Below, in pieces: positions 29,847 to 63,795 of a DNA stretch of 64,000 nt. Origin of the DNA: Watersipora subatra (Eukaryota > Bryozoa > Gymnolaemata > Cheilostomatida > Watersiporidae); the NCBI RefSeq assembly GCF_963576615.1, contig NC_088711.1, positions 56,772,248 through 56,836,247 on the forward strand, in the 5' to 3' direction. The notes under the pieces are model-generated. The model ran no database searches. It saw nothing but the letters and a program-made list of their open reading frames with translations, and had not been told where the DNA came from. Every line of letters starts with the position of its first letter. Positions within the stretch are counted from its first letter, which is position 1. The position numbers and the translations under genes are program-made.

Positions 29847-32800
29847 CTACAATGTCTTTGGAACACTAGCTATAATGGGCTTGGGAAGGCTATTAAAAAT
29901 TATCTTTCGCCTGATGATAGTATTAATATCATAGTAGTTATCTTCTCTGTTGTTTCGACATGACTCACTGTCAGTTTTTGCTTTTGTTGATTTAGTCATG
30001 ACAGCCAGTGGTTTCTCTAAACTCTCAACTTTACCATGGAGGATGTGGTGGCCTATGATCATGATAGGCTTATTCTGTAAAGAAAAACATGTGTTTAGAC
30101 GGAGAATTGGTCGGCATCTGTAGAGAAAACAACTAACAAGAACAATAAGTTGTTGTTCTTATCAAGTTTTGCTCACATTAGTATGTTCAAACAAAATTTA
30201 AAACCAAGGTAGGCGGAAGAGATAAAGAATTGATTAATATTTGTAAACTAATTCAGTAAAGTAGTAAATAGTCCATGTGATCTTAGCTATGAAATAATAA
30301 ATCAAGCTTCTTTAAATCAAAATCACTACCAAATTATTTGACACAAACAAAAATTATTTTAATCACGATGTAAATCAAAATTTTTTTGGAAAACAATTTT
30401 AAATTTTTATGATTTTTTCGGTTTTCATCATTTCACATGAATCAGTGTTTCTTGACAAACAATCTTGCGTTGATGTGTATGTAACAAGTCTGTAAACACT
30501 CTTCTATCAAGAATTAGCAAGTGTGATTGAGATAATTGAATGCATGTGTAATACAATGCTATAGAAGAACCCTTGAAGTTAGTACATGTGAGTTTATTTA
30601 GTAAACCTGAAAGCAGTAACAACTGTAACAGGTACAGTTTTCCCTCACTACTCTGTTTAATAAATGACATGGCATCAAACTCTTTACTGCAATCAGCTCA
30701 AATGCATCGCAAGGGTATTCTTAAGCTCTGGCTTCATTCATTTCAAAATAAAAAACAGCTAAATACTGAAAAAGTGGAAAACTAGAATATTTATACTTTG
30801 CATGATCAATTTAATTGGTCACCCTGATAAAAAAATGAACTTAAATATTTCATATCACCTTTTTGTCTTTGGTTTTCATTAGTACTTCGTATGAAGCTGC
30901 TAGTAGCTCTACTCTACTAACTTATATATAGTTTGCACATAATAATTTTATATTAAAGCATGTAAGTCGCTAATACTGAAGAAAGGATTCACAGAGATCC
31001 TGATGTCTGTGTGCAGCATAGACCTATCAACTATACTAGCATAGTTAATAGTATAGTATAGTTGGTGATAATAGTATAGTTAATAGGTCTATGGTGAGCA
31101 GTCTCTAAAAGATCGAGTATAATGTCTTAGCTTACAGCAACCAGAGGCCGTGGCATTTTTTTAAAGCCATTGTCGCACAAATTTAAATTGAAAAAGTAAT
31201 AATCTGTTCCAATCACGGGTCAATTTTCTTCAACAAGTTTGGTGAAATATAGGCAGAAGAGTTAATGCTTGAAGACTTCCTTAGCTTCTCATGACAAACT
31301 TGACCAGAAAGCCTACCAGAGGCAATAAAGAACAAATGACTACACTTGCCTTTTCATGGCAAAAATACAATTGATTGTCACTGAAACCATAGTATACAGC
31401 AGGTCTCAGTTAGCACTGAACAACATGTGTCATTCTTGAACAAACCTAACAAGCACTGAACATCATGTGCCAGGCTTAAACAAACCTACAAAACACTGAG
31501 CATTGCATGGTAGACCTCATCACATTTATTAGACACTAGAGCTGCACAACGATTATAAAAATTGATCGCGATTAATAACTGGTCTGAACCAGTTAATCTT
31601 CGATTAATCTTCAAATTAATCTAGCAAAAACCTGCATATTCAAAAACAAATAATACAGCTACATATAGATTAATTATATTTTAAACAATTGTTAGCAGTA
31701 GTACATGTTATGTGCAATATACATAAGTTAAAATGTAATAATTAATATGAGTATGAAAACTGTCTATGAAAGTCTAGAGCCAAGAGTTGAGACAGCACAG
31801 TTTATTCACATTATCTGAATAAAGAGATGCCCTCTTCCTACATACGATATTGCCAGCTTTAGAGAATAGCCGCTCACAGGGGACAGCAGTGCCGGTAGTC
31901 AGTAGTACAGTGCACCCCCGAGATACGATGTTAATTCGTTCCAGGGTTGGCATCGTATGGTGAAAAATTCGTATATCGGAGTATAGAGACCATTGTAATT
32001 AAACAATGCAAACACTCCCTGGTGAAAATCGTCAAATTTTTTTCATAAAAATGTGTACATATTGACAATTAGCAACAAAATAGTATGTTAACTTTAGTAA
32101 TTATAGTTACCTACAGTAACTGTATTGTATTTAGTGTATTTTAATGGTTATGATCTGCAATAAAACGCAAAATTATAATGTGTGTACCAAATGCATAACG
32201 TACGGTAAGGAGTTCTTGCCTTCAAAAGGTACGCATAACATAAACTTTGAATTCACTTCAAGTAAGTTTAGCTTGCTAAACCTACACTTGAAACTAAGTT
32301 TTAGTATGTATCAACTTTTTATCACGAAATTTTATCCTTCAGCAGTTCATATCTTCACTTTCACTACAAACTTTAGCCTATCTGTTTGAAACCTGTTTCA
32401 ACCTAAATCAATAAGGCCGAGCGATGCAGTTATAGAAAGCGGCCCCTCGCACACTTGACCATTTAATGGCTACCGAAAAGAAAAATAAAATTTTATTTTC
32501 TATACAGGACGTACATACCTTTGGAGTAACGTGGCTTTAGCTGGTACATGTAGCGAGTAAAGCAGAGATGAGGCAAAAGCGTATCAATGCTAATTATGGT
32601 GCTGTGCACTTGAAAATAAATTTAAAACGTAATGAATTGGAATTTTTTAGTAGGCTAAAAGAAGTTGTCCATTCCTGTCCAATTCTTCTACCTTTTCTAC
32701 GAAAAAAATTGATGGTGCAATGCAGAAAATTTCTAGCTAGCGCTTGTAAAAGGATCCAGAGAATGTGGTACAGTAGTTTGTCTTGTATGAAATGTGCAAA

Positions 32801-35800
32801 AGAATCAATGTAACTATACATACAAAGTTTGTACGTATTTATACCCTAGGGGGGACAGGGCTTTAGCAAGTTTCAGAAAGTAATGTGGATGCTTCAACTA
32901 TCCTGAGTAGCTAGTTATATGAGTTACATACATACATACGATGAATTGTATTCACGTAGAAGATAACAAGCCCATATGCAAAGACATGGTTAAACAAGAG
33001 AATAAAACATAAAACCAAAAGGAAACAAATAAAATGACTAAAATATGAAAAACATGCCACACAAGAGATAAATAATATATATTATACATGCATTGTTTTA
33101 ATGTACCAGTCCACATCAGTAAATTAAACACTTAAAATATTTCTGCGAATGTGGGGCTTTCCGTATCTTCTACATCCTTGCCTTTACTAAATGGTTGCTC
33201 CTTTTGAATGCTGATCGCGTGCATGACCTAGCTCATTCAAATCTTCTGTCGGAAGCTCTTTCTTGTGCTTGCTTTAATGGAGTTCTTGTTTTAATAATAA
33301 TTGCATAATAATTGCAAATGCTGATTGGTTGCGATCATATTCCTTGACAATGTTAATAATACGGGTCCCTTCTTATTTACGACATCCAACTTCGTTGACA
33401 TAGAAATCAATTTTCCTTCGTTTTGTAACGTTTGGATCGGTCTCAGATTCCATAGATAACGAATTAAATGTAGATACTTGTAGTTATATACGTATGCTGA
33501 CTTGAAAGTTTATAGCAAAAGCTATAATAACGCTACAAATGAATATTTGCTCTCGCTTGTGCATTTTACACGAAATTTTTCACGCGGATATGAGAGAAGT
33601 CGATCATCGTGTCTCTTCTAAACGTTCTAAGAATGTTTTCGGCAAACTATATTTCGGTGTCTTTTTTATTTCGACGTGTGTTATGAGCACACCGACGGCC
33701 AAATTTTAACTCGGGCGAAACTTTTCTCAAATTCGTATGGTGAAATAAAATTCGTATAGCGAGGTGAAGATATCACGATGTTTGACTTCGTAAAGTGAAA
33801 AAATCGTATATCAGGGTAATCGTATCTCGAGGGTGCACTGTATTAGTTATAGTCTGCGACAGCTGGTGATGATTTCTGCGCGGTAGGATGAGAATTAGTT
33901 AAAATATATCTTAATGATGATGTGCTATGGTGGTAAGCAAATTCTTTTTGGCATATACTGCGCTTCGCTTTTTTGTTTACGCTTCCAACAACTTACAGAA
34001 GTGCGCTACCTAGGGTGGAAGACATATTTCTGCTTTCATGTTCCAAAAAAGTGTTAATCTTATTTTACTAATATTCTGAAGCTGAAATATGATTGTGATT
34101 TTTTTGAAAAATGAAAATACATGTATAATTTACTTAAAGAAGTTTTTAAAAATAAACAAAAATAAACTGTAAGGTGTTAAATAATACTGAAATCACTTTT
34201 GTTGTTGTTACCTAGAAACATGTTCAAACAACTAACAACATGGCCACTTACAGCTAGATCTGCATGGCGCTTGTGCATTGTATTGTATAAACAAGTTTAA
34301 TGTTAGCGACTCACTGTGTTTTCATAGTCGAGTGCAAAATAATTGTGGTTTAATTTATTGGTAAGAAAGTGTTGCTTGTCATAATATTTGTTAGTAAATT
34401 AAATGGTAGTAACCTGCTACGTTAATATAACGTATGGTACTAAACAGTACAAAGGAAAGGAACCGCATCAAGATCATCACCTCGGTTGCATTTTAATTGA
34501 AGATTAATTGGCCCAACTCAGTTAATCGTTTATTTGTATTAGTTGCGTTAATCGTTTAATTAACGCGATCATTGTGCAGCTCTATTAGACACCAAACAGA
34601 AAATCTACAGCAAGACTCTACTTCATATAGCAAGTACCACGCAGCGCGTGTCATAATTACCTCATTTGTAAAGATCAGGTTGCCAATAAACTTTCCATCC
34701 AAGCTACCATCTACACGGCACTGTAACTCCCCTTGTAGTTCTATTATCACAGTTTCCTGTTTGTCAGGATTGGCCGCACTGTAATGAGTCCACTGAATTC
34801 AGTTCTTTTAATCACAACACAAACTGCAGCCATTACCCATGTAACCATACAAACTTAAGGATGTAACATTGATTTTTCAAATTTTCCGCATATGATCTCA
34901 TCAGGAAATCTTTGTGGTAAAGCAGGTGTGCAAAGTAGCCACATTTGTTCTGATTTACTGTATGTCTTTTGTGTCTATTAAACTGGCCACCAGAGTTTCC
35001 GAAGTCTTTATAAGACAGCGCTTGTAATAGGCAGGATATTGCCTTACTTGACCATGTCAAATTGAACAGTACTGAAAAAATGGTAAAACTTGTGCAACTA
35101 GACTAAACCTAATGAAGCTAAACAGCCACATTGAATGAATTAGCTTTTGTGAGCTTCTTATCGACTAACAACAATTCAGGCGATGTTCGAATTTCCTAAC
35201 ATATAATCAGATGGCTCGCAACTCTCAAAAACCAGATTGGGTTTTGAAACTCAATACTTTTAGCAACCTGACATATGCATGTGAAGTTTGGATAAAATTG
35301 GCCCGAAAAATGTGGAAATGCAGGTTAACAGACACTCATGACATTTGAGATTTATTATTATCAATATACTATGTAAATAGCTCACATCCATCCTCGACGT
35401 TTATTGCGGTATATTGCAAACTAGATATTTTTTACATGGAAGATTCTAGATTAATATATTCTAGGTTAGCTTAGGATATATTGGCAATAGTGTCAGCAAA
35501 CTCAATTAACTCATAGTTAAACAAAAGACAGAAAACTCCATCAACCTAATTTGTTGCACCTCTGAAAAAGAAAATCAAGCCTAACTACTACTTCAAGCGG
35601 GTATGACGAAACTGCAGCATATCAGAGAATAAGAAACATTTTGAACAGAAAAAACAATTCCAACAGTGCTCTAAATCTGCTGATCTCAGGTCAAAATAAT
35701 GTAGGCCTATCAGTTATTAATAGTGCATACAAATATTCCTATAAAATCTGTAGTTGGTGGTCCAATTTCTTTGCACTCTCAGTGCGATTCGTAGAAGAGT

Positions 35801-37609
35801 AATATTGTACAGCTCTTTAGTTGGTTAAACAAATCTTGCTGTTCCTGATTAGCAGATGCTAAATTCTGCACTTGCTATAACTAGTTTATTATACTGCATA
35901 TCTAGTCACAGCAGTTCAATGTGGCAATGAGATCCGCGCTAGATTTAAAGTCCTTTATGTCATGTACTCAGTTTGGCACTCAACTTGCTATCAATGCAAT
36001 GTAGGAACAACATTTTAAATAATATTTGTCACCGATGTATTACATTTCCGCATTAATTCCAAACAACTCAAACATGATATGTTGAGAGATTTTGAAAATT
36101 TGTCATGCAAATTGGAAAGATAAAAGAATAATAGAAAAACTGTTAATTCCGTCAATGATATACAACACCCACAACATGAGTTACGGCCATGACATGGGCG
36201 GGGTTCAATGATCGAGATCTGTTAGGATTGTGCTAGCCTAGGTTTTGGGGCTAACACAGTTCGCGCAGGTGACCGAGTTGCCTTGTTAGGTCTTTTGGTC
36301 TAGATTTGTATCACCTATATGCGTCGATCGCGGATAATACCTGATTTCCGGTTAATAGTACAAAACAACAAAACCTGTAACCAGCAAACATGTAATTCTC
36401 TCATTTCCTCTTCAATTTTAGCTACATGTATATACTAGGATCCATGAAAAATAAAACATTTCAAATTACCTGTTTTTACCAATTTTGAGACTGGTAGGGG
36501 TAGTAGTATATGCTTAAAGGTTGACTTGCAACAAAATTCACATTACAGTTATTTGGTATCAAAAGATACACTATGTCTTACTCTGTTGTGTTGTAGGTGC
36601 CAAATATGTGGAAATGTGATTACAAGCACTTAAAAGTTCAAAAACGAAAAGCCGCCGTAGATTGGAATCTGTTTATTTCTCTGACGTAGTCATTACAGTT
36701 TGGTTATCGTCTTGTCACGTGATGTTCGCACGTAAATTGAAAGGCTAATAAAAGGCTCAATATAAAACTTCTCGTAGCACCAGTTTATGACAAACACTTT
36801 GGGTTTTACCGAAGAGCCTTTACCGAATATAGATGCTTGCTACTTTACAGTTTTGCTTCGGCATTATTCAATCGTCAAGTTGTAATCTGATCACGTGACC
36901 CAATACTTCGCAAAGAATTTTTGCAGCACTTTTCGATTATCACAGGTAACCAACAGGCTCGTCATGATTATCAGACAATGATATGTACTCCTTCGAGCTC
37001 AGTTTAAAAAGTTTAACGATTTTTTACGGTATACAAAAAATATACTGGCCTGGCCAATAAGATGAAACAGCAGGCAAAGCGGTAGTGTAGTTTTCATACT
37101 CAAAATCTAAATCTAAAACCAAATTTGTGCCATTTCACAATGGCAACTATTAATACCACGAATGCTTGTGAATGGCAACTGACTGATCATAGCGGTGACT
37201 ATATTGGGCAACTTTATTTATTTGACAACAAAATGAAACCAACAGATCAGTAAAATAAACATTGTCGTTCATAATATTTGTAAATTTACAAAGGGCTTTA
37301 TTGAGCATGTTTCTTTGTTCTGGTGCCATGTTCGGGTTCATCCTAATAAAGCTCGATCATTAAACCTCACCCATATGATTGCTGTAATCTATCCTGTAGA
37401 GGTTGTATATCATTGTTTCCATTAGATCATTCCAGATATTATAGGAATGTCCATAATTTGTAAAGATAGTACTGTAGGTGTCGTTTTCCAAAAGCTGATT
37501 AATAAAAAGAAATCCCATGATTGAAATTTATAAAATAGTCTATGTTGGAAATCACTGAGCTAATTGTAATAGACAAGCATAAAACTCACTTGCCGATTGT
37601 TATCAGCAT
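29847..37609 (-). CDS. CHTF8: CHTF8 (CTF8), subunit of the CTF18-RFC clamp loader; complete, three exons
   Basis: Coding exons are 37609-37590, 34778-34661 and 30074-29847 (stop TAG at 29849-29847); phases agree and the product is 121 residues, the usual length. Recognition rests on ELQGELQCRVDGSL in exon 2 and IIGHHILHGKVESLEKPLAV plus FNSLPKPIIASVPKTL in exon 3, in family order. CTF8 joins DSCC1 and CHTF18 in an alternative replication-factor-C complex that loads PCNA at forks and promotes sister-chromatid cohesion in the nucleus. Start choice: the ATG at 37609 yields MLITIGN, matching the short N-terminus of relatives and the phase of exon 2; the neighbouring ATG at 37616 gives the wrong phase. 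The donor is GTGAGT after only 20 coding bases. UTP4 diverges from the same 5' side. Intron 2 (4.6 kb) is mostly nested transposons. Confidence 0.93.
31017..31093. repeat. Imperfect 77-bp palindrome
   Basis: CATAGACCTAT at the left is inverted as ATAGGTCTATG at the right, and the centre is made of ACTATACTA/TAGTATAGT repeats that can pair in several registers. It is in intron 2 of CHTF8. Confidence 0.8.
31537..34584 (-). mobile_element. hAT element with 8-bp target duplication and transposase remnant
   Basis: The termini TAGAGCTGCACAACGAT and (inverse) TAGAGCTGCACAATGAT are flanked by TTAGACAC on both sides (31529-31536 and 34585-34592), the 8-bp duplication typical of hAT insertion. On the minus strand at ~31808-31902 the frame reads GTAVPCERLFSKAGNIV followed by CRKRASLYSDNVNK, the C-terminal dimerisation motif of hAT transposases. 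The rest of the transposase is missing, so this is a deletion derivative. A pogo-like element (31908-33840) is inserted directly upstream of the motif. It sits in CHTF8 intron 2. Confidence 0.9.
31908..33840 (-). mobile_element. Pogo/Tigger-like element A nested in the hAT element
   Basis: Termini CAGTGCACCCCCGAGATACG and (inverse) CAGTGCACCCTCGAGATACG, with TA on both sides (31906-31907, 33841-33842). The minus strand near 33470-33270 shows KRRKIDFYV and IVKEYDRNQSAFAIIM around a stop, like the N-terminal helix-turn-helix of pogo/CENP-B type transposases. An 81-codon ORF at 32568-32813 has no catalytic motif. The length of 1933 bases and the lack of a DDE frame make it a decayed or non-autonomous copy. 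Confidence 0.85.
36200..37380. repeat. Interspersed repeat, copy b
   Basis: Longer relative of the repeat at 1-735. Shared words include GATTGTGCTAGCCT, AAAACATTTCAAATTACCT and GTTCGGGTTCATCC. The middle (36530-37047), absent from copy a, contains CTTGTCACGTGATGTTCGCA and another TCACGTGACC. It ends ~210 bases downstream (in transcript sense) of CHTF8 exon 1, inside intron 1. Confidence 0.75.
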
Positions 37610-38888
37610 CTCGCATGCGTACAGCCCTCACAGCGCCTCTCAAGCTTGTTTACTGGCCTGCAAAAATACAAAATGTCTAACCAGTATTGTTAACAGAAAT
37701 TAAACTATTTTGTGTTACGTACATGCATTTTGTTAAATAAGTTGAGGCAAAAATACAAAGCTAAACATTGTGAAAGTTTGGTCTCTTCTTTAGACACTTT
37801 TTTATTTCGATAGAGTACATCTAGATGGAATGAGTGGATCTAATAGAAAATGCAAAAGTATATGTGAGGTAAGTGGAATCAAATCAGAAAGTGAGCTTAA
37901 ACTAAGGCGATCTTTATGTATCTTAGTAGGTAGATAGTAATCTCCCTTCGACTTATTGTGCTCTGGTCAATGTAGTAATGCTCATCTAAGTTAAAAGTCG
38001 TGATAAATGAATTCGTTATGTGTTGTGCTACAAAATATCCTTGAGTGATCACGATTTTTCTATTGTCTAAATACAAAAAGAAATTTACACCAGCAGGGTA
38101 GACGAATATTAATGTGAAAATCTGCTACGTAAAAAGTACTTGACAGTGTCGAGCACCTATTACTTGTCCTAAAAATGTTTCTCATTTCACAATTTGCTCT
38201 ATGGATAAAAGTTTATCAATATACCTGAAAACGTAAACGCAACATTTAAAGACGTTTCGCGTTAGGTAATGTGTGTTTTTTTATTTTTTTTTACAGCATG
38301 GATACAATAAGTCGAGCGCGTACAAAGATAACTAACCAATCCACGTGCTTCGGTTTCGCGCCACCACTGTATAACCAACCAGCGAATGTTTACTAGCGAA
38401 CCCATCTAATCAGTTGTATAATAATAGTTTGAACAAGCAAGTGATAGGTAAAAGTTTTAGGGACTGTAATAAAGAAGATATTAGCGAATTGCCCAACAGT
38501 TACAGCGAACCATGTGTGGGAGCATTTATGTTGAAACTTGAATATACGTAATTTTTTTTGTTACTATTCCGATATCTAATTTTGAGTGTGTTTACATAGA
38601 GAAAATTTGAACTGAACTTGGGTAAACACCAAGTTAACCTTGTGTTACTTTGCATATATGTGAGCATCGGTAGTTATCGTTTTAGATTCATTTATCAGTT
38701 TTTAAGAGGAGGCTTATAAATGTCACAATCAGGTTAGAGCTAACAATTATTGAATATTTAGCTGCTTCTAACTGATGAAGGGTTCGTTCAATTTTGCCGT
38801 CATTCTTTCTGGCTTTTACCGAAGTTGTAGCCTATATCATGAATGATGAGGTTTTGTATTTTATTTGTGCATACTCTTTGTTTGGCAG
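37610..38888. promoter_or_regulatory. Divergent promoter region between CHTF8 and UTP4
   Basis: The CHTF8 start codon (37609, minus) and the first UTP4 exon I can support (38889, plus) are ~1.3 kb apart with no intervening gene. CCAAT at 38336-38340 directly followed by the E-box CACGTG at 38342-38347 is the clearest candidate element; CACGTG is the Myc/Max-type site common near ribosome-biogenesis genes. A GGTAAAAG donor near 38447 and the strong acceptor before 38889 suggest a non-coding or short first UTP4 exon around 38300-38446. Transcription starts cannot be read from sequence alone. Confidence 0.55.
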
Positions 38889-41800
38889 AGAGACCGCGAA
38901 GACAGCGTAAACCTTCAGGTGGATTAAAGTCTCCAAAAGTGGAAAGAAAAAGAACAGTTTCTCAAACATCTAACAAAGCTAATAAAAACCTTACGGATCC
39001 TTCACATTTAAACAGTGTTTCTAAAGTTGAAAGAAGGCGCTCCACATCAGTCGGTGAAGGCAAACATCAATCTCAAGATGATGTCGTTATGTCACATCAT
39101 TCTTATCGTATGCACAGAGTCAAGTTCTTTGAATATGAGCCTCAATCCATAAATTGCATAGCTTGTGATAATGCAAACAACAGACTGGCATTGTCTCGGT
39201 AAAAATATTTACTACTTATCACATTGCGAATATAACAATCAGAACTGCACTGCCTTGCTGTATATTTAAAAGTTGTGGATGGTTAAAGCATTCATATTAT
39301 TTAAATACATTGTTATAAATATTGTCAGCCTCTCTTGCATGTTAAATTAAATCATATTCTGCGATAAACCTGAATTTTAAAAGTTTGAAACATCAATTTA
39401 GAAACAGTTTTTAAAAAAAGAATAACTTTAAAAAGTCCCTAAATGTGATGCTATTTTACTGATGCTCGATCCATTAAAACTGTTTTATTTATTAAAATTC
39501 ATGTATACATATATTGCTGCAGGTCTGATGGCTCCATAGAGATCTGGACTGTTGGATTATCATCTGCAGACCTTTGTCAGCAATATGTGAGTCTGTTCGC
39601 TAGCCCATGTATAGTCCATGTATAGTACAATGAGATTATATTCTGTAACCATACTTTGTAACTAACTTCATATTTCTCTGGGTGATATTTTGGCTCTATC
39701 ATTCCATTACAGCAGAGTGATGTCATCAACATAAAGTTTTTTTCTCCCTTGCAGGTTCTTGCAGCTTGCTAAACATTCATTATGAATCTTTCAACATGAA
39801 GAGTTACGATTAATTTACATGCTTTTGGTTCTTGATAGCATTGATAGATCTTGCAAACTGTTCCTTTGTATTTTCACAGGCATTTTTGAATGTTGATAGA
39901 CTAGGCTGCAGGTTAAATTGTATTTCAATAAATTGAATCATTCTAAAATAGATGTTATCATTTAGGGTTCCAAGCGCAACTTTAGTATGTGGTGTATTGT
40001 AGGTTATAAGGAATGAGAGTGGGACATCTATAGAGGCTCTCCTCTGGCACAACTCCATCCTCTTTAGAGCAGGACTCGATGGAGACCTTGTAGAATATGA
40101 TATGCAGACCTTGAACTCAAAAGTATATCCTTACTTTTCTTTTTATAGCTTCTTTCTCAATGATAGCTGTTGTATTGCGTTTGTCAGCGTGCTCTACACG
40201 AGCTGCAATTTTAAAAAATCATTGATTCATGTATTGAGCTGTTCATTCAGTCTGCGAATGGTATGTATATGTTAAGCTAACTCTATGTGTAAGTAACTCT
40301 ATGTATATGTAAGCTAACTCTATGTGTAAGTAACTCTATGTATATGTAAGCTAGATATTTATCAAGGTGTGTTTACACTCGTTAATGGCTTATTAATTAG
40401 TGCACAAAAGTGGCTGTGAACAATAGATTGGAGTTGTCCATTATTGCCAGGTATTAGCAGTTGGTAGTTATTTTTATTAAAAATCACACTGATGGTGAAT
40501 ATTGTTGGTACACCCTAGACCCGATAGGACGAGGACAAGAGAGAGAAAAAGTCGACTGGTTAGAGAGGCTAACCAGAACAAGTTTTTTTTGGGTTGTCAA
40601 AGTTTTCCTTTTTTAGTTAACATTATTTCAAACTTCACATATTTTATTATTTATTTCAATAATAAAAATAAGTCCATTTCATACTAGCCTGACAGTCTTT
40701 CTACTGATCGTCGAGGCCTTGCAGTACATCAAGTTGTTGTTTCTGAACTGTCCTTTTACCCACATTATCTTTCCTGTGATATTGGTGTTCCTTCTACCCG
40801 TTCCTCAGCAAACCATAGTATCACGACTTTGTTGAGTGGTGTTTGCTCTGCTTCCTTTAATTATTTTCCTTTTAAACCTTCACTTTCATCAAACGAAGTA
40901 GTTGGCTGCATCTCTCACAAAGAATACTCACTACTCACAAAGAATAGATTCACTGCTTCCAAAATCTTTAGACACTTGCTTGCGGCTTCCCTGTTTTTAC
41001 CATATAAAGAGTCTCTAAATTTTCTTTTCCATGCTCTGCATTGTTTTAACTTCCATTTTTTCTGACTGTATTATATCCAGTTCCTCATCTTGTATCGCTA
41101 TATCGTACCGCGTTGTACCATGTCTAGTTCCTCAGTCTAGGGTGTAATTTATTTGCATTAACTATTAATGCTGGCGCAGATAATTTTTAACAGGTTAAAT
41201 TGTTATCCATTTTTATTAATGTTTTTAACACGCGTCGAGGCAACAATATTTTTTGTCACTTTGGAATCAAAAGGAAATATTTTTTAACTTTGTGACAAAA
41301 GAGTTAATACAGCGATTTTTTGCTTCTTAACATTCAATGTCATTATTTAAAGCTCTAAAACAAATGTTTGTCTATTAGATCCTTCTGCACTCTCTGGGTA
41401 GAGATTATAATTATAATAAGGTCTAAAATATCGTCTAAGTTTCTGCTATAAATGATTAGGGTATAATATTATACTAATAGAAATTATTATATGTAAATTA
41501 ATTACATTTAATTAAATGTATTCTTTTGTATCAAATTCAACCTTTTGTGCTGATAGTACTCTATAAAATATTCGTTGTATTCTCAATATATAAAGCAACA
41601 TTGCTATGTACCATGGCTATCCCCATATTAAGTTAGCACTGATTAATAACGTCAGAAAACATAGAAACATTTGCATTCAAATAAAATATGCATGTTTTTA
41701 TTAAATTACCGGTAAAGTTGATTTATTACTTTGATTTTTGTGTACGATTTTACATTACTAGTATTTGTTGTCTTTCATGTTGATCGTAGTTACTGCGCTT

Positions 41801-47800: not shown

Positions 47801-50800
47801 CTAGCAAAAAAACTTTCGATTGGCTGCAGGTGATTGGTAACAAGGTTGTTTCGTTGGAGAAAAAATTTGATTGGTCTAGCTAATGTGTAGGCTTTGTAAT
47901 GAAAAGAAAAGTGAAACCCTATTGATTAGCCGATACATCTGCTGATGGTCTGTACTTCTATTATCGCGAATGCCGATAGGTCGGCTTACGGTAGCGAAAG
48001 AATTAACAACAAGTATCGAGTTGTGTGATCAGTAGCGCTGTCGCTAGATCTAAACAAGTAGTTCAACTGTCAGTTAATCACTGAACTTACTGACATTAAT
48101 CTCGGCTTTTGATAACATGGCTAGTTGTGTTATACATCGATTGTTAATGCGTATCGGTATCCGGCTGAAAACCACATACCATTTTCACGGGATTGTCAGT
48201 CGCTCAACCATCACAGACCATTAATTAACACAATCTTATATTACTTGGGCTACTGTTAAATTTCTATGTGATTGACATAGAGTCATACAGTTTAGGTACT
48301 GCAAAGGTCGATACACTTTACTTTGTTTTCTGTAGCAAGAATGTAGAGTCATTGTTTTTGTAATTTGTTTTGCTTACTGGGAACCCTGTTTTTTAATCGT
48401 TATTGTTAATTAAACATTACCTATCATTACTAACAAAACTGCACTAGAAACTCAAAAGCGCTGCGCCACTTTCATTTTTTTACATGAAGCAGCCGTTTAG
48501 TGTTTTGCCCGCTTCGAAGTGCGTCAGATGTTCGGCAATCATTAAGAATGCTTTAGAAAAAAGTTCTTTCTTCGTGACGCTGTTGGTGTCACCCCCCCAA
48601 TCTGGCTTCACATCAAGTAGTCACATCAGTAATTATTAGTAAAATAATCTGTTGTCTGTGGTGTTGTTAATAAATTGTGACCTTTTTTTAATTCTTCGGT
48701 TTGATACGCTGACCTAAGAAAGAGGAATTGTTTGCTCATGGCAATTCTTCATCAGCCGCCTCATCACCCATTTATCTTGTGTCTGGCAAGCTCGTAAGAA
48801 CAGTTTGCTGCAAGTTCACTGCTAAATATATCGGAGTAGCATAGCTAAAGGCCTTTCCAATCTCTCATTATTTGTTGTTTGCTAGTGCCTCGTTAATATG
48901 AGATAGTTTCTCACATGCAAAGATACTTCAGAGGCCAACAAGTTTCAAGTTACGGTATATTAAATCGTAAGAACTATGCCAGAAACCAATGGGTGGTTTC
49001 CTAGTGGGTGACCACGCTATCACATGATATAAATGTCTATAGAAGGAAGCAAATTCGGCCTTGTCTTGAAGGTCCATCATGTCTGTGCATTACTCCCCAG
49101 TACTTCTAGTTTTTAACAAATGTTCAGTAATTATTAATACAGTGTACTCTCGAGATACGATTACCTTAATATACGATTTTTCACCTTACGAAGTCAAACA
49201 TTGTGAGATCTTCACCTCGCTATACGAATTTTATTTCACCATACGATTGTGAGAAAAGTTTCGCCCGAGTTAAAATTTGGCGGTCGGTGTGCTCATAACG
49301 CACGTCGAAATAAAAGGAGACACCGAAACATAGTACGCCGAAAACATTTTCCGAACGTTTAGAAGAGACACGATGATCGATTTCTCTATGTCAGAATTCC
49401 GCGTGGAAAATTTCGTGTAAAATACTCAAGGCAGAGGAAATATTCATTTGTAGCGTTATAATATCTTTTACTATAAACTTTTAGTCAGCATACGTATATA
49501 ACTACGAGTATCTACACCTAATTCGTTAGCTATGGAATCTGAGACTGATACAAAACGAAGGCAAAATGATTTCTATGTCAACGAAGTTGGATGTCGTAAA
49601 TAAGAAGAAGGCATCCGTATTATAAACATTGCCAAGGAATATGATTGCAACCAATCAGCATTTGCAATTATTATTAAAAAAGAACTCCATTAAAGCAAGC
49701 ACAAGAAGAAGCTTACGACTGAAGATTTGAAGGAGTTAGAAGGCCATGCACGCTGATATGTTAGAATTTCAGAGTTTTCAATTATCCTTAACCGAAATAC
49801 TACGGTGTTTAAATTCTTTTCATATCACAATTAGTTGATAACTCGCTAAGCATGCGAGAGAATTAGCTGATGGCTGTTATTATTATTATTATTACATAAT
49901 ATTATTAAGCAAAGCTTAATAATATTACGGCGTGAATTCAGTAGCTATTACATTATGGCGTAATCGATAATTAACAAAATATAGAATTGATTATGAAAAT
50001 AGATTATAATAGGAATTCACCTTTTTATTAGTGATCGTCCACTGCAGACTGGTCACTCCTTCTTGGATGTACGCAGCCTGCCGTGACAAGCACGGGTTTT
50101 GATAATAAACGTAGGACAATCACTGTCTCGTTGAAGTAGTCTTCGCCGGTCGAGAGCTCATCCCAAAAGAAAGAGGAATCATTCAAAATCTCCCGGTTAG
50201 ATGTAACATCTGAAGACCAACGAGTGTAAGAACTGTGACGGAGGGAGGTTATCAGTACTGCCCCTATTAAGAGAAATAACTCACGCTATACCAATGTGAC
50301 GTAGGCCAGCTACGTAATATTATTGGTCGTACTAATCGTGCCTAATACACTATTGCGAACGCCGACGTGGAACTACAAGATGGCGGATCCAAACCACAAT
50401 GCAATTCTTTTACGCAGTTCCGACTTAGATAATGTAAAGGTCGAATTTCTCAGCAATGAGGAGATAACTCTTTTTCGGGTAGGCAGAAACTGACAAAACG
50501 AGATATAACAACGCGATAGGCATTCAAAAGGAGCAACCAATTAATAAGGTCGAGGAGATAGAAGATACAGAAAACCCCCACATTGGCAGAAATGTTTCAA
50601 GTGTTTAATTTACTGATGTGGAATGGTACATTAAAACAATACATGTATAATATATATTATTTATCTCTTGTGTGGCACGTTTTCATATTTTATTCATTTT
50701 ATTTGTTTCCTTTTGATTTTGTTTTATTTTCTTGTTTAACCATGTTTTTGCAGATGGGCTTGTTATCTCCTATGTGAATACAATTCATCGTATGTATGTA

Positions 50801-53800
50801 ACTCATAGAACTAGCTACTCAAGATAGTTGATGCATTCACATTACTTTCTGAAACTTGTTAGAGCCTTGTCCTCTAGTGTATAAATACGTACAAACTTTG
50901 TACGTATGGTTACATTGATTCTTGTGCACGTTTCATACAAGAAAAACTAAAGTAACACCTTCTTTGGATCCTTCTACAAGCTTTAGCTAGCTAGCAGTTT
51001 TCTGCATTGCACCAGCATTTTTTTTTTTAAATCAGAAGAAAAATTGGACAGGACTAGACAACTTTCTTTCGCCTGCTAAAAATTCCATTTTATTACGTAT
51101 TAAATTAACCTTCAAGTGTACAGCAACATAATTAACATTGATACGTTTTACCTCCTCTCTGCTTTATTCGCAACATGTACCAACTCAAGTCACGTTACTC
51201 CGAAGGTATGTACATCCTGTATAATAGTAAATAAAATTTCATTTTTCTTTTCGGTAGCCATTAAATGGTTGGGTGTGTGCGAGGCCGCTTTCGATAACTG
51301 CATCGCTCGGCCTTTCGTATTGAACTCTTGTTGAAAAAGGTTTCAACCAGACACGCTAAATTTTATAATGAAAGTGAAGATAGAAACTTATGAAGGATAA
51401 AATTTCGTGATAATAAGTTGAAATTCAGTAAATTAATTCAAAATACATACTAAAACATAAATTAACATACTATTTTGTTACTAATTTTCAATATGTATCG
51501 CATTTTTATAAAAATTTGGACGATTTTTACCTTGCATTTTTCCATTGTATAATTACAATGGTTTCTATACCCGGACATACGATTTTTTCGCCATACGATG
51601 CTAGCCGTGGAACGGATTAACATCGTATCTCGAGGGTGCACTGTACATGTTGAATACTAAGTATATTGTCTGGTCATTCCCAGACAATATAGAATTAAAA
51701 TTGTGTGCTCTTGCTAATAGTACTAACATCTTACAGTACCAATTGGAAAGTTACAAGTTTTGTTTTATCAGACTTGGTAGTTTACGGGTATGTGAAGAAC
51801 GAAGTGCATCGCCACAGATGCAGGGCTTATTGTTATGTAGTTTAATTGTTATCATTGCTATTAGCCCCAAAACATCCAGTTGAAAAGTTCAACAACGTAG
51901 CTGAGCTCTCACGTTGTCAAAACCACACAAAATAATAACTTTTAATTTTACACTATGTACAATATTTTTTGTTCATCTTGTCAAATATAGCTAGGAGACT
52001 TTCTAAGGCATTTGAATTCTATTTTAGTAGTTTTATTTGATTTCAATCAATTTAATTTGTTTTGCAAGTTTTTAATCTGTAGAGTGAATGAGCTATAACA
52101 CTGTCTAATGATCGTCTAAGAATAGAGCAACAATCTGTGGTCTTGTAATTAACCTGATTGGGCAGAGCTTGTTATTGTGTGACAAGTAATCTGCTATGAC
52201 TATACTGAACCTGTGACCTCATACTGTCTTATAGGAGTTGACTGCTCGCTGGTTGTTGCTGACTTTGAAGAGAAGCTCAAATATAAGACGATTCCACTTC
52301 CTCAGGTGGGAAAGATATTCACATATCTCACATTCAAATTGAATCCTTTTGCTATGAGTCATCCCGTATCCTCCATGCTTTATTTCTTAAAGACTAGTTA
52401 ATCATTCTTTTAGCTGAGTTGAATTATTCTATTCTTGTTGTTTGGAAAAAAGCATCACGATTCTGATTTGTAACTTTTACCAAACACTCTCTGCTACAAG
52501 ATGTTAGTATCAACAAATGACTGGATAATATCAAGTTGATCAACTCTGATGTCGCCATCACCGCTATTCGAATCTCAAAATAATAATGATGATGTAACAC
52601 TTGTCTCAGCCACTAAAACACTCACAGTTTGCAAAGAAAATACAATTTTGGAAGCAGTAAATTTAAGAGTTTTTTCAGTTTAACTGACTGCTACAAATTC
52701 CGAGTTATTTTGTTTAAATCTATTAAATCATTAAATTGATGTAATTTAATGATTTATTAAATTTAGGTATTCCAGTCGTTTAGTCCTGAGTTGGATGATA
52801 ATGTTGTTTAATTAGTAAAAATTTGAGGACGCGTAGCAGGATGCTGTTGTCATTACATATGATTATTAGATTTACTATGATGACTGTCAGAGCAGATGAT
52901 TCTTATTGTTTAGTTATACAGCTGTTTGATCATTGTTCTATTTATTCTAATTTGTTGCAACTACTGTATATTTTGGGCTAGGTTAGAAAGGTTTCTTGAG
53001 AATCTGCTGATAGCTTTATGGTTTCTGTTCCTTTGTAGCAACGACTTGTGCATGTAGCCAAGGGAGCACAACTCCTTTTGCTCCAGTACACCAATTACCT
53101 CCAGCTGTGGACACTCGGGGTTACCAATACACTGCTGGCTGACAGAGGTAAACATTCATACTCGTGTTATGTTATTCATGCTTATTAGTTTGATTCTATG
53201 GACGGATAAGATTTTTGTTTGAAGCGCATTTTCATCGTATTGGCTAATCATTTTAGTGACGAGCTGTTTTGTTAACTGCGGAAAAATTGTTACAAACTTG
53301 TAATAAACCCACTATTTCTTTGTTCGATTAATAAAAATAGATAAGTTGAAAATGACCTTGAACTTCTAACTTCATTCGTCAGAATTCCTTCAGCATATAT
53401 GCATTACTGAGCAAAATAATGATTTCATAAAAAGCACTGTGAAGAAAGCATCAACTATTCCGTAAAAAGAACTGTGAAGAAAGCATCAACTATTCCGTAA
53501 AAAGAACTGTGAAGAAAGCATCAACTATTCCGTAAAAAGAACTGTGAAGAAAGCATCAACTAGATCAGTAATTCACTGTAGGTGATGTACATAGGTTCAG
53601 TGTGAATGTCATCATTATGAAACACCTGCCTCTGCTGCCAGGCCTTTGCTGAAACAAAAACGTTGACTTCACCTAATCACGGTTTCACTGTTGTCCATCA
53701 AATCATTGAGGCATATATTACCACTGCTATAAGGCACTCTCTGAACTGCATCAATGCACAGATACGTGGTTGTTTTACCAATTAGAAACATTTTATATAA

Positions 53801-56800
53801 TGCAGGCCACTATTAATATTTGTAGCCAGTCATGTGACAGTCATCAGGCTCTTCTCGTTGTAAATATATATATATATATTAAGAGTTATGTGAACACGCA
53901 AAAACCTGTTTTCTGTCGTCAACAAGTAGCATTATAATTTTTATTATTTTTTTGCTTCCTAAAATTCGATCTTTTGATAGTGATTAAGGATAAAAATTTC
54001 TTGTAGCTGTCGACAAATCCGCCTTACAAATTAAAGAGGCAACCACTTATTTTTTTGTGTAGCGGGCGGCAACTACCGAACCTGTTTTGGGGTGAGCCAA
54101 TGGTTCGCTCTAGGAACATTCCCGGTTAATTTTCTCCTCACACGGCATCCCCAGTGGTTTCTGTCAACCTGGCTCAACCACAAACAAGGAATATAACAGC
54201 AGTATACAATAACGGACACTCGTTAGCCTCCCCCTCCCCTTTCAAAATTAAGAGCACATTTTAAGATTCATTATATATATCTATTTGTAGAAGAAGGTAG
54301 TTGTGAGCTGCCATTGAGCTCTTCCCCTGTGAATCTTCTTGAACTGAGGAGCAAGAGTGAAGAGCATATTGTTTGCTCTGCAATCTCTCACAGCGCCTGC
54401 TGGCTTGCCTATTGTGACCGGACTTCTCTGCGTCTCTTCAACCTGACACTGGTGTGTATCTTTGCTCATCTTTTGCTTAGTCAACAAAACTAGATCGTGG
54501 GGGAGGCAAGTCATCTGAATTTATGTTTGTAATCATGAAATACTGGTTATACATTCACCCGCTTTACTCGGTTTACATGCAGTAGAGTTTCATTGTTCAA
54601 TTTGAATGAAAAGTAAAGAAAATTACAATGTGCAAATTGCTGACTTCCATGGATACTGTGGATAAAACTAGTCACTCAAGTATCATTTGAGAGAATTACT
54701 CAGCGTAGTTTCGCAGTCACTAAATTGATTGTAAATATGAAGTGGTGGGGAATGTTTCAAACAGTAAATCATGTTTTCAACTCTGATAAAACAGCATTAT
54801 CACTTTACTATCTGTCTTTAACAAAATAATGTCTAAATTCTTTTCAAGATTCTAAGGAACCTTTTGCTGTACTCGGATTACAGTTCTATTGACCTTTGCC
54901 TGGCATGTTTTCTAGCAATCAGAGGTTTGCAGTGATATGTAGCATGCTTTTCATTGGCATCATCAGAATCGCTGCCAGCTCAGTACTTCCTGTTATAAAG
55001 AACTTTGTTCAAGTTCTGAACATTTGTGTCTTCCCCTTTATTCAATCTGCAATCATCACCATTCTTCGAGTTAGTATTTCTCATCTATTTTCGGTCTGTG
55101 TACAGTTTTCATACATATGTTTACAGAGTCAAGGTGAGATGTTGGCCCCGAAGCTGTCTGCCAGCAGGTTCAGAGGCCTGCCTACGACCATATCCCACCT
55201 TCCTATTAGGGCTATGCAGTTTAGTGGAGATGGTAAGCTCATCCTCGGCTACGTCGACTGCAGTCTCAAGGTGCTCATGCTGAAGGAGACCAATTCACTG
55301 CCGCAGATCACTAACATTATCAATAGCCCTGCTCCTCACAAAGGTTGGACGGTCGATGATGCTTCATAGTTGTTTTAGGGTTTTATGCCATACTGAAAGC
55401 TATCGAATAGCCTGTGGATATTACGCAATCTGCAATGTTTTATCTAATGTGTTAACTTCTATGTACTGATGGAGTGCGATCACTACGCAGGCAGTGTCAC
55501 TGCATGCCCAGAGGCGTTTGCATGTTACTACTGCAACATACTTCAGTTGTGATAAACACCAAGGAAGATTACATAATACGTAACTGGGGATTTAGAGAGT
55601 TGCAACACTCAGTACTATTTACAATATAAATTAATTAATTTAATTATTTTGATTTAATTAATTAATTATAATATAAATTAGCTTTTATGTTGTCATGACG
55701 CAAAAGGTATTCTGTGTTGTATTGAAAGAGGAATTATATACTGTGTGTCTGGTTCACTCCAACCAGACATGTTGTAGTGGACTGTTTTTACTATAACAAG
55801 ATTCACTATAACATTCCTTCTTACTCAGGTTATTTCTACATAGCGTAAAGGTCAAGGAGAATCAGATTTATAGTGCAGCATCTATTGATATGATTCATGA
55901 TAAGAAATGGTTTTCTGCTTTTTACAAATCACATGCTATTTTTATAGCCTGTCTGTATTGATGATTTGTTATAGAGTTGATAATTCTCAAATGGCAAACT
56001 TGTTTGCTTTATTTTTTTATGGCGACATTAGCATCTTCATAGAGGATGCTTGTTTTATAACAGGTGTAGAGCATGGAATATTGCGCCTCATTCAGACATC
56101 CCAGGATGGAGAAAGGATTGTTACTTCTGATAGTCTGTTTAACCTGCTGGTTTATGAGTTCTGCGCTGGGGAACTGAAGGTATGTGTTTACTTTCTTTGG
56201 TTCTCATATGGATATATCTCTCTCTCTCAGCAAGGTTAAGCTACTTCATTGTTACTCATTGACTAGCTGTTGCTAAAAGTGTTAGGGGACGGATGCTAAT
56301 TTGTCCTGACAATAGTTTGGAATTTCAGTGCACTGCACGATTTTATTAAAATACGGGGATCGTCAGTATTTTATGCCTCGTTTTTCTAATCTTTGGTGCG
56401 ACGCGAATTTGTCAATAGCTGCTTGTCTATCATAGAGAGGAGTGGAGGGTCAACATAAGATTGACAATAATTCAAACTAGTTGAACAAGCGAGCTGTTAA
56501 TGTGTGATGCTCTGATTCAGGAAACAAACATTGTTGGACGAGCGCGTTGTTTCTCAATGGCTACATAAGCGAAAATCACTCACAAAACCACTTTGGTTGC
56601 AGGTTCTCTGCGCACCATTTTTCTTGCCTTCAAAAAGATGAACTTGTAGACTAGTTTAGACTTGTTTTCAGAAGATGCTAAATATTTTAATAAGAAACCA
56701 AATAATTAATAATGGTTTTAATTTATGAATATTTAATAAAATACATGTTGTATTAAATAATAATCATATTATTAAAATTAATATTTTTATTTTAAAATAA

Positions 56801-59800
56801 TTATAAAATATTTTCATTAAGAAATATTGTTGTTTTATTAACATTTTCTTCTTAAAATAACATTTTAATTTTGTTATTTTAATGATAAATGATTTTTACA
56901 GTCTATAATTTATGGCTGTTTTTGTGGTTAGTGCTGGTTCCTATTACTGCAATAAGTAAGGAATCACTGGATTGCTCTTATTTTTTGAGCCCCCATCTCA
57001 TAGCTAAACTATTGACAGAATATTGGCTATCTTAAAGCAGCTTTATGTCATGTTCTCAGCTAATGGACCACATATACTTTATGAACATTATTCGTCTTTT
57101 CTCACTTCATGTCATTTCTACATTCTGCTTGGTATTACATATTATATAATTTATACCTGACTTCATTTCTAGGCGTATGTACAACATATTTTAAGACTCA
57201 TATTTAGATGATAGAACTAATCGGTGTAAGAGAATTTATTATGCTACTTGTCTTTAAATTTCAAATTTGAAATTTCAAGACTGCTATATGTTCAGGAGTT
57301 GTTATCTTTTTATTCCCACAGATGCTCTGTAGACTGCCAAGAGAAGATATTCTCGTGACAGCCCTGGCCTTTTCTCCTAGTGCTGACTGTCTCTCCTACA
57401 CCCTTTCTTCGCACAAGGTGCCTCTTTTTGTTTTCCTTTTATATCTACGTATTATACATGTATGTTGCTGCTGCTTCGTCGTCTCTTTCCCTTCAAACAT
57501 TCGCTGTAGTTTGCTGTACAGTGCGCCATGTGCATAACCATGTTCCTGTTATACGACTTTTTTGCCTAATGAAGTCAAACATGACGATTTTTTGTTCTCG
57601 ACAAACGAATCCTATTTCGCCATACGAATTCAACAAATTTTGCTCGAAATTCAAATTTGGCAGTCTGTGTGCTTACTACATCGAAATAATAAAGATGTTG
57701 ATATGCTGTTCGCTGTAAACTTTCTCACTACACATGGAAGAGATGCGATCACCGGTTTCTTTCAGTTCAGCATACCTCGTGTGAAAAGTAGTAATATTTT
57801 CCCTTTGAAACCAGAAACAAGGTTTGAGTTGCGATCTTTTCGAGCATTGGGTCAGGGAGTCCCACACCTTCCCTTAGCCTGTTAACAAAAACCCATTTCA
57901 TTGCGTAGTAAATTTATTTTCAAGTGTGCAGTATCATAATTATCATTGATATTATTTTTCTTTCTCTCTGTTTTACCCACTACATGTACTATCTCAAGTA
58001 ACGTCACTCCAAAGGTGTGGTAAAAAAAAAATTTTTCATTTTTCCTTTCGAGACCATTAAATGTTCAAGTATGCGAGAGGCCGCATTTGAGAACAGCATC
58101 ACTCAGGCTTTCTTGTCAAATAAGGTTGAAAAAGGTTTTAATGAGGTGGGTGACAGTTATTATAGTACAAACGAAGCCAGAGATCGATAGGTGATAAATT
58201 TTAGGTTGTAATAAAATTGGAAGTTTAGTAAAATACATACTAAAACTTAGCTTCAAGTGTCTGTTTAGTAAGCTAAATTCAAAGTTTATGTCAGACGTCC
58301 GTCATGAAGGTAAGAACTCCTATGGTACGTACTGCTGCTACTGCACATACGCGTTTTACATTGTATTATTACATTTTATTGCAGATAATAACCACTAAAT
58401 ACACTAAATGCTAAATAGTGACCTAAATACACTAAAGGTATTGTTGGTAACTATAGTTACATGTAGTTAGGAAGGTTAGCATACCATTTTGTTGCTAATT
58501 TTTAATATGTCCATACCTATATAAAATTTTGTTAATTTTTACCGGGGTGCTTGCATTATACATGTAGGCCTATATATAATTATTATGGGTTTCTATACCT
58601 CTTTATACGTCATTTTCGCTATTCGATGCTAACCCTGGAATGGATTAAAATCGTTTGGCAAGAGCGCATTGTATTTGGTAGAGTTTTGTCTTTTTATTAA
58701 ATAATGCATTTGGTTCTTTTCAACAAAAACCTAGTAGAATTAATAAGCAAGCCTTGAGATTGTAATATATTTTTATTATTCTACATAGAGATGATAATAT
58801 AATATATTGTTATTATTCTACATAGAGAGGATATTATAATATATTGTTATTATTCTACATAGAGATGATAATATAATATATTGTTATTATTCTACATAGA
58901 GAGGATATTGTAATATATTGTTATTATTCTACATAGAGATAATATTAACGTATATTGTTATCATTCTACATAGAGACGATATTATAATATATTGTTATTA
59001 TTCTACATAGAGATGATATTGTAATATATTGTTATTATTCTACATAGAGATAATATTAACGTATATTGTTATCATTCTACATAGAGACGATATTATAATA
59101 TATTGTTATTATTCTACATAGAGATGATATTGTAATATATTGTTATTATTCTACATAGAGATAATATTGTAATATATTGTTATTATTCTACATAAAGAAG
59201 ATATTATAATATATTGTTATTATTCTACATAGAGATGATATTATAATATATTGTTATTATTCTACATAGAGATAATATTGTAATATATTGTTATTATTCT
59301 ACATAGAGATGATACTTGGCAGGCTTTTAGTGATCAGCTCTGAAGCTGCAGTGACTGACCTTTTTTATAAATTTTCATAATATTGTTTTATAGAAACTTA
59401 GAGGCAGCAGTGGTTAGTACGCTGGCATAGAACCAGTAGGTCAGTGGTTCAAATCACAGAAGGACCATTGGTGGTGTTAGAAAAGGCATCCAGCTACATT
59501 TGCTCTTGTGTCAAATTTTCATGAGCAAAGGTTAATAATATACTCTGTACCAGGATATACCTTTTGCGGCACTTACTGGGCTTTTCCCCTTAATGGGAAA
59601 AGCCGAAAGAAGATTTTATAGACATTCTTACTAGAAACGAAAAGAAGTTATTTATATAGGTCAAACATAGAGTGATTTTACAGGTCATAGAGTACAACCT
59701 AGTTCGACGTTGCTACACCACTCCTCCGAGCGTATCTATTAAACAGAAGAGTAAAAGTCGAGTGTTCAACATTGTTACCAAAGTGCTGAACCTGCAGTAC

Positions 59801-59869
59801 GCACGGCACGACTCAACACTTATTCTCATCCAGGACGCACTCGGCCTGCGAGTCTATGATACCAAGTCT
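38889..59869 (+). CDS. UTP4: UTP4 (cirhin), WD40 protein of the small-subunit processome; 3' end outside window
   Basis: Fifteen exons keep phase: 38889-39198, 39523-39586, 40003-40122, 42062-42130, 42706-42790, 44216-44385, 45493-45567, 47168-47387, 52235-52305, 53039-53147, 54291-54451, 55127-55343, 56064-56179, 57322-57417, 59684-59869. From MHRVKFFEYEPQSINCIA (Met at 39110) this gives 616 residues; the family is ~690, so ~60 residues lie to the right of the window. WD40 blade ends are visible (GSIEIW, GDLVEYD, NIRLW, GKLTFW, YLQLW), as is HHSHDVRAVVV before VISGG, a family hallmark. UTP4 acts in the nucleolar UTP-A complex needed for early pre-18S rRNA processing. The first exon also holds ~65 upstream in-frame codons rich in Lys, Arg and Ser: either an extension or 5' UTR. 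Introns contain elements B and C, a 37-bp array and a SINE-like sequence. Confidence 0.93.
40275..40348. repeat. 37-bp tandem repeat, two copies
   Basis: Two exact head-to-tail copies of a unit starting AGCTAACTCTATGTGTAAGT, in UTP4 intron 3. Confidence 0.85.
41926..41984. repeat. Perfect 36-bp palindrome with an overlapping third arm
   Basis: Bases 41949-41984 form an exact palindrome with half-site GTAGAGTATACGCATTTG. The segment just before it (GTATACTCTACAAGT, 41926-41940) can pair with the same left half through ACTTGTAGAGTATAC, so two mutually exclusive hairpins are possible. It lies ~80 bases upstream of a UTP4 exon. Confidence 0.9.
44805..44940. repeat. AT-only palindromic tract
   Basis: TATATATAATATATAT-type sequence with many self-complementary stretches, in UTP4 intron 6. 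Probably a degenerate microsatellite. Confidence 0.8.
45728..46200 (-). mobile_element. Possible piggyBac-like remnant
   Basis: The left end reads TTAA then CTCTTTGAATCCTGG, like the CCCTTTGAATCCTGG-type ends of some piggyBac-class elements, and another TTAA lies near 46198. A minus-strand ATG (~46055) opens an acidic peptide (MDDCDADEELYDTSRNF) of the sort that begins such transposases, then stops. The right terminus does not mirror the left. Weak assignment. Confidence 0.3.
49140..51643 (+). mobile_element. Pogo/Tigger-like element B in UTP4 intron 8
   Basis: Termini CAGTGTACTCTCGAGATACG and (inverse) CAGTGCACCCTCGAGATACG, TA on both sides (49138-49139, 51644-51645). It is element A in opposite orientation with extra internal sequence; the plus strand at 49530-49700 carries the same decayed KRRQ..FYVNEVGCRK and NQSAFAII region. 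No intact transposase frame. Confidence 0.85.
52713..52765. repeat. AT-rich hairpin
   Basis: Arms containing TTAAATCATTAAATT and AATTTAATGATTTA face each other across a ~5-base loop; UTP4 intron 9. Confidence 0.7.
53428..53562. repeat. 35-bp tandem repeat, ~4 copies
   Basis: Nearly identical units containing AACTGTGAAGAAAGCATCAA; UTP4 intron 10. No sign of function. Confidence 0.92.
57519..58671 (+). mobile_element. Decayed pogo-like element C in UTP4 intron 14
   Basis: Begins CAGTGCGCCATGTGCATAAC after TA; ends GAGCGCATTG before TA. The interior follows element B (GAAGTCAAACATG, CGCCATACGAATTC, then AACCCTGGAATGGATTAAAA), but with many changes. Much older than A and B by this measure. It starts ~100 bases after the exon 14 donor. 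Confidence 0.75.
58760..59314. repeat. 37-bp tandem repeat, ~15 copies
   Basis: AT-rich units around TATTCTACATAGAGATGATA and TTATAATATATTGTTAT, with sub-patterns of variants repeated in order, suggesting expansion of multi-unit blocks. In UTP4 intron 14. Confidence 0.95.
59400..59480 (+). mobile_element. SINE-like tRNA-derived head
   Basis: Box A TGGTTAGTACGC and box B GGTTCAAATCA are ~35 bases apart, as in tRNA-derived SINEs; the sequence does not fold as a complete tRNA. The non-tRNA body probably continues to about 59570 and no target duplication was seen. Confidence 0.5.
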
Positions 59870-60052
59870 GTGAGTACTACTCGTTAGGTTTCTCTTTGTG
59901 CCTTCAATAGAACCATTCTGTTTGTCTAATGAACGATTTTAGTAGAATTCATGATATGACTTGCAAAACAAGGAACCGGGGCTTTGTTTCATGCTTTTCA
60001 GGTACTGAGCTATACATATCTCATAACGTATAAATAATTATCTATCTATATA

Positions 60053-60924
60053 CAGTCATACCTTGACATGCGAGTTTAATGTATTCGTGGACTGAGCTTG
60101 TATGTCAATGGGCTTGTAAGTCAATGCAATATTTCCTCTATTAAGTAACTACCATAACTTCCGGCATATAAGTCTAAATTTTGACACCAAATTCCAAGTT
60201 TGAAAATTCATCATTGACTTCTACTGTGGTCACATTTTTCATAAAAAAAGTTCTAGTGAAAATCAACTTCAAAAAACCATCGCAAGTCAAAATTACTTGA
60301 TATGACATATTGGGATTTATTTATAGAATAGTGAAATACTAGTAATCCTACTCAACATGACTGGATTAAACACAAAGTCCCATTCTTCACAATTCCAATT
60401 GTCATCGCTAGGATTCTCCTACGGAATAACGCGCTTTTTTCTAATTTAATGCTTTTTTCGAAGTATCTACCTACAAGCCTACTCTTTGGTAATTCATTCG
60501 ACATATCTACTATCGTCTATCCATTCTTTTTCTCATACATGAATCGCGACTCCTGACAGAAATCTGTTCTGCAGCATTGATTTTCTGTTGAAAATGTACC
60601 TATTATCAAAGGTGGCAGTTTCGTTTTATTGTTCACGGGGGCCAATACGATGGTGAAGTATTGCTTTGTTGCTTTGTGGTCTCCGCTTGAACTAGCGTCA
60701 TTCTTTTTAAAATGTTTTACAATTATTAATCGTATTGCTGATGGCACGAAAAACAGGGGCATTTTGCTGATGGCGTTTTTTAATGCCATTCCTTCAACAA
60801 TGCATCGCCCTTCTCTGTTGACTGAACTATTGGCAATCAAACGATTTGAGTCAGAGAAGAGGGTCGACCTATACGGCAGGTACATGTCAAAACCAGGATC
60901 TTTAAAGCAGACGTTAAACCTCAA
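60053..60924 (-). mobile_element. Pogo/Tigger-like element J with transposase fragment
   Basis: The left terminus CAGTCATACCTTGACATGCG follows TA and is of the same type as element E. The minus-strand ORF 60924-60517 (135 codons) includes QYFTIVLAPVNNKTKLPPLI, resembling the LTVLLxxNxxGxxKLPPLVIGK segment between the first and second catalytic Asp of pogo-class DDE transposases. The right terminus may be the degenerate GGCTCGTATTCTCATATTTC at ~63696-63715, in which case K and L are nested inside J. Confidence 0.5.
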
Positions 60925-61339
60925 CGTATACGCCGGGTTGATTTGTTTGTCCGAATTTACGGTACATACAAATTAATTCGTTCCTATATTACAAAAAAAC
61001 CACCTAAACTCTACCTAACTAAGAATATTACATTGGAAAACCATGTTTTTAATTGTGGCTATTTGGTACCTATGCTGCTAGAGTGAAACACTTGCTTATT
61101 CACTGGTTATGAACTTATGATCTGCAATAAAATGTAGCATTAATATGTACAGTGCTGTATGGTGTTCTTACTTGTGGGACAGACTTACTGGCTAACAACG
61201 ATGTAGGAGAGACTTGACAGCAACACATTCGGTAAACTAAACTTGTTGTGACGCTACATAACATAAACTTTGAATTTATATTAAATGAATTTAGCCCATT
61301 AAACGCACAATTAAAGTTAAATTTTAATCTTTTACTATA

Positions 61340-63495: not shown

Positions 63496-63795
63496 TACTT
63501 ACTTTTAATTTCGCAATCATCCTAATTTTTTATTATCCGTTTCCGGCTTGGTCCTTTTTGCCTCTCTTTAACTATAATTTTAACCGACCTTATTAAAACT
63601 TTTTTTTCAAATTGATGTGACGAGAAAGACTGATTGATGCTGTTCTCGAATGAGGCTACTCGTATACTTGGCCAATTAATGGCCATCGAGAACCGGCTCG
63701 TATTCTCATATTTCAAGGTAGTAACTTGCTAAAAAGATTTGTCCATATCTCGATTTTGTCATATGTTTGGCATGACTGTACATTGTATATGTGCC

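Follow-up and report, generated by a model that had tools for sequence, protein, structure and literature searches.

A head-to-head CHTF8-UTP4 gene pair in Watersipora subatra and a candidate bidirectional promoter between its two members

The stretch of Watersipora subatra DNA that we analysed (64,000 nucleotides, hereafter the window) carries CHTF8 and UTP4 as adjacent, divergent protein-coding genes, the CHTF8 exons lying on the minus strand and the UTP4 exons on the plus strand, and thus as a head-to-head pair (Table 1). On balance we slightly favour the view that this pair was inherited from an ancestor common with vertebrates and would be served by one central bidirectional promoter. The identities of both genes and their head-to-head layout agree with the original prediction; the two genes also diverge as predicted, from an interval that had been put at about 1.3 kb and that measures 1,479 bases between the two start codons. 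No gene was recognised inside this gap.

Table 1. Position of the CHTF8 and UTP4 features and of the candidate regulatory elements in the window
Feature	Position	Strand	Remarks
CHTF8 exon 3, including the stop codon	29847..30074	-	tblastn 2.5e-17 against a working human CHTF8 sequence
CHTF8 exon 2	34661..34778	-	AG acceptor, GTAATT donor
CHTF8 first coding exon	37590..37609	-	ATG at 37609; MLITIG plus a split codon; donor GTGAGT; in-frame splice to exon 2
Interval between the two start codons	37610..39088	.	1,479 bases
Acceptor TTTTGTATTTTTGCAG 5′ of the CHTF8 ATG	37658..37673	-	score 5.0; exon would begin at 37657
CCAAT + CACGTG + TTTCGCGC cluster	38336..38361 (26 bases)	.	candidate bidirectional promoter core
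Acceptor CTCTTTGTTTGGCAG 5′ of the UTP4 ATG	38874..38888	+	score 4.3; exon would begin at 38889
In-phase ORF before the conserved UTP4 ATG	38889..39088	+	
UTP4	39089..57417	+	conserved ATG through the last exon with firm support
Further UTP4 exon, probable	59684..59869	+	collinearity at the end of the joined match only; followed by a GTGAGT donor

Three minus-strand exons with GT/AG borders splice into an uninterrupted CHTF8 ORF of 121 amino acids with a stop codon, in which Pfam recognises the Ctf8 domain (PF09696) over residues 44-113 with 52.8 bits (cutoff 22; E 6.9e-14), nearly all of the match being carried by exon 3. With this domain and a short, complete ORF, the gene falls in the CHTF8 (Ctf8) family. 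The protein is 42% identical to a working human CHTF8 sequence, and an ELQGEL block in exon 2 is common to both (tblastn 7.8e-05, with the same query). Among solved structures, CHTF8 had no match at E<=0.001 (phmmer), and pattern searches of the prokaryotic and viral collections gave 35 and 94 hits, respectively, none of which was confirmed as a relative. The 5′ exons of CHTF8, like the UTP4 exons beyond 57.4 kb, were placed by hand in regions where spliced alignment is unreliable.

For UTP4, the eight 5′ exons (39089-47387) join into one open frame, and the first 416 residues of its product, compared with solved structures, match human UTP4 best (3.4e-86) and yeast Utp4 next (3.5e-41), the best protein not named UTP4 following at 3.6e-14. 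Other WD40 proteins are thus more distant than UTP4, and the gene belongs to the UTP4 family. Five downstream exon peptides (54308-59869), once joined, are collinear with residues 373-566 of human UTP4 (9.4e-11). When each of these exons was scored singly against a working human UTP4 sequence with 500 shuffles, 54308-54451 and 57322-57417 both stood above 500 of 500, while the scores of 55127-55343, 56064-56179 and 59684-59869 were reached by 81, 113 and 177 of the 500 shuffles, respectively. With two of the five downstream exons above the shuffles and the other three not, UTP4 is firmly supported as far as 57417 and, judging from the sequence comparison, probable to 59869. The latter position had been taken for the end of the gene, a claim that does not hold, because a GTGAGT donor follows directly and makes it an exon border. 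The C-terminal ~75 residues of human UTP4 were not found by a gap-free scan of 59870-64000, which reaches the window end; the best score of 32 is at background (six shuffled maxima, 26-34), and therefore either the gene continues or its end has diverged beyond recognition. At the other end of the gene, the ORF that precedes the conserved ATG in phase with UTP4 could possibly be an N-terminal extension or a 5′ UTR. In the window, 431 of 9114 stretches of similar length (4.7%) are free of stops in a given frame, and Pfam gave no match on 38843-39202.

Both genes lie in repeat-rich surroundings. Two copies of a repeat in opposite orientation (31905-33845 and 49135-51646), of which the main pieces are 85-87% identical, sit one in a CHTF8 intron and the other in a UTP4 intron; the first overlaps the remnant of a hAT dimerisation (C-terminal) domain at 31774-31998 on the minus strand, and weaker relatives occur at 14396-14789 and 57545-58654. 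Another dispersed repeat (400-768 and 37050-37418, 85% identity) has its second copy downstream of CHTF8 coding exon 1, at a distance of ~170 bases. Three minisatellite arrays (20588-21180, 21707-22428 and 58755-59314) have units of ~28, 18 and 37 bases, respectively; the 18-base array (40 copies, 95% matches) is open in three frames, and the 37-base array lies in UTP4, between the exon that ends at 57417 and the one that starts at 59684. A coding-like ORF of 157 residues (RKYRKMADVRRVVRNKLRKRVLSADEAENLESLV...) is present at 19747-20217 on the plus strand, the last 110 residues of which have no Pfam match. A tRNA scan and an Rfam search at gathering scores gave no match in the window. Pfam was run on a selection of ten window proteins, CHTF8 and UTP4 included, and the only further cellular gene recognised among these ten is a member of the TACO1/YebC family. 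It consists of a single uninterrupted ORF of 286 residues (8698-9555, plus strand; TACO1_YebC_N 3.8e-17, Transcrip_reg 5.8e-24) and, being intronless, is perhaps a retrocopy.

No repeat in the region 37584-39091, which spans the gap, recurs in the window at a distance of more than 2 kb; such repeats occupy 6,857 of the 64,000 bases, and for so short a stretch their absence is not telling by itself. Short repeats within the gap are of the size expected by chance, and the G+C content around it (36001-40000) is only 35%. Near the middle of the gap, CCAAT (38336), CACGTG (38342) and TTTCGCGC (38354) follow one another closely; these we take to be sites of the NF-Y, Myc/USF and E2F types, respectively. 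As a sequence match this is the sole cluster in the window with all three within 100 bases, against an expected 0.05 per window (60 shuffles) or 0.0025 when the interval alone is considered (2,000 shuffles), figures to be read in the light of the three motifs having been noticed by eye before they were counted and so chosen post hoc. Taken one by one, the three classes are not in excess in the window, with counts of 116, 5 and 2 against 145, 6.4 and 2.4 in shuffles. The scan covered 11 motif classes; the interval has no GABPA, YY1, CRE, DRE or TCTCGCGAGA site, an NRF1-like CGCATGCG site is present in the leader of CHTF8 (37612), and one TATA-like site lies at 38715. A CpG peak at 38228 (12 per 150 bp) falls in the top 0.8% of windows of that size, four other places in the 64 kb being higher (e.g. 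49262 with 16) and three equal.

According to the model that we favour, both genes would be transcribed in opposite directions from a single central promoter at ~38.2-38.45 kb. In each gene a short noncoding exon would come first, with an intron of the 5′ UTR after it, and the actual start-to-start distance is predicted to be much below 1.3 kb. The CCAAT, E-box and E2F-type sites could then tie CHTF8 and UTP4 to cell growth and S phase, and the pair would have been kept because breaking the shared promoter would harm one of the two genes. The main rival to a shared promoter is inertia, in which the inherited pair was never split by rearrangement and each gene has its own promoter. The 1,479 bases between the start codons, to be compared with a gene-to-gene gap of 19 bp in chicken, leave room for two promoters. 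However, a single motif cluster and a CpG peak are situated in the middle of the interval, and the absence of TACO1 from the sheep list given below is a hint, from one gene, of a neighbourhood that was reshuffled while the pair stayed together. We consider inertia a credible explanation, if a somewhat doubtful one.

The noncoding first exons that the shared promoter calls for are suggested by splice acceptors, again seen as sequence matches, which precede both first coding exons and would place such exons nearer to the motif cluster; the distance between the two transcription starts would in that case be well below the gap between the start codons. With scores of 5.0 and 4.3, the two sites exceed seven of the nine UTP4 acceptors scored alongside (-1.6 to 4.9). 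On the UTP4 side, the acceptor of the exon that would begin at 38889 is the sole plus-strand one above 2 in 38450-39094. On the CHTF8 side such sites are not rare, since six minus-strand acceptors exceed 2 in 38300-37601, the 5.0 site being the highest and the next (4.9) lying at 38224. No donor above 3 was found for the proposed 5′ UTR intron of either gene, and among the UTP4 donors scored alongside just three of nine exceed that value. Both messages might alternatively receive a spliced leader by trans-splicing, the acceptors then being the ends of outrons and not of 5′ UTR introns. A good acceptor before each coding start, with no donor above 3 on either side, speaks for trans-splicing, which accounts for the acceptors equally well; ordinary 5′ UTR introns are common, however, and we hold the spliced-leader explanation to be unlikely.

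Returning to the shared promoter, a link between cohesion and ribosome assembly would be a reasonable idea. A far more specific version, which we put forward as a speculation with a low prospect of being right, is that one bidirectional promoter has, since before vertebrates and this lineage parted, joined two inputs through the 26-base CCAAT/E-box/E2F module: a Myc-type input for growth, concerning ribosome building (UTP4), and an E2F-type input for S phase, concerning PCNA loading and cohesion (CHTF8). Should the pair prove to be kept across animals, it would offer a compact test of whether a shared promoter holds head-to-head pairs together, and the promoter in question would be one that joins chromosome cohesion and ribosome assembly. 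The case also illustrates how, in a repeat-rich genome, the gap between start codons may hide transcription starts that are far closer.

In humans, CHTF8 and UTP4 (CIRH1A) are presumably divergent neighbours at 16q22.1, and we assume the same orientation for vertebrates in general. That the two genes are also neighbours in vertebrates, as had been predicted, is supported as far as adjacency goes by chicken, where CHTF8 (11:19157119-19158772) and UTP4 (11:19158792-19163525) are 19 bp apart and are followed by SNTB2 at 19163629 (PMC6339939). Entries for two other species are consistent with this: a sheep region has TANGO6, PDF, an unnamed gene, CHTF8, UTP4 and SNTB2 side by side, in a list that does not state the map order (PMC8085236), and in humans both a differentially methylated region (DMR; chr16:69131682-69134198) and a CpG-island probe are assigned to UTP4, DERPC and CHTF8 (PMC13207186). 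The orientation of the two genes is not given in these chicken, sheep and human entries (PMC6339939, PMC8085236, PMC13207186). A zebrafish entry places cirh1a on chromosome 18 and does not mention chtf8 (PMC3795688), and CHTF8 and CIRH1A are each listed as human R-loop genes in an entry where a shared promoter goes unmentioned (PMC4489302). Among the passages that we consulted, none treats CHTF8-UTP4 as a bidirectional or syntenic pair.

An adjacency that arose by chance, independently of vertebrates, is highly improbable, given that a pre-named neighbour in the right orientation would be met about once in 40,000 cases (our own arithmetic, for 20,000 genes in random order), and common descent is therefore much likelier. 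The bryozoan and vertebrate loci have the same two neighbouring genes, on the chicken coordinates, and differ in their setting. The gap of 1,479 bases between start codons contrasts with the 19 bp between the chicken genes, and the human locus carries a CpG-island probe whereas the G+C content around the bryozoan gap is low. The sheep neighbour list is without TACO1, the sole further cellular gene recognised in the window, which leaves the CHTF8-UTP4 pair alone as the conserved unit here.

Apart from this locus, conserved divergent pairs of housekeeping genes are a well-described class. NF-Y and E2F motifs are reported as common in human bidirectional promoters (PMC11676430), and in amphioxus the genes associated with bidirectional promoters are enriched in housekeeping functions; the same study inferred 372 putatively ancestral bidirectional promoters among chordates, with vertebrates having lost the majority (PMC6292497). 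CHTF8 and UTP4 resemble the conserved animal pairs described there in being likewise two housekeeping genes, arranged 5′ to 5′ and long retained, and differ from the amphioxus-study pairs in being known here from sequence (PMC6292497). The CHTF8-UTP4 pair would accordingly be one more member of this class.
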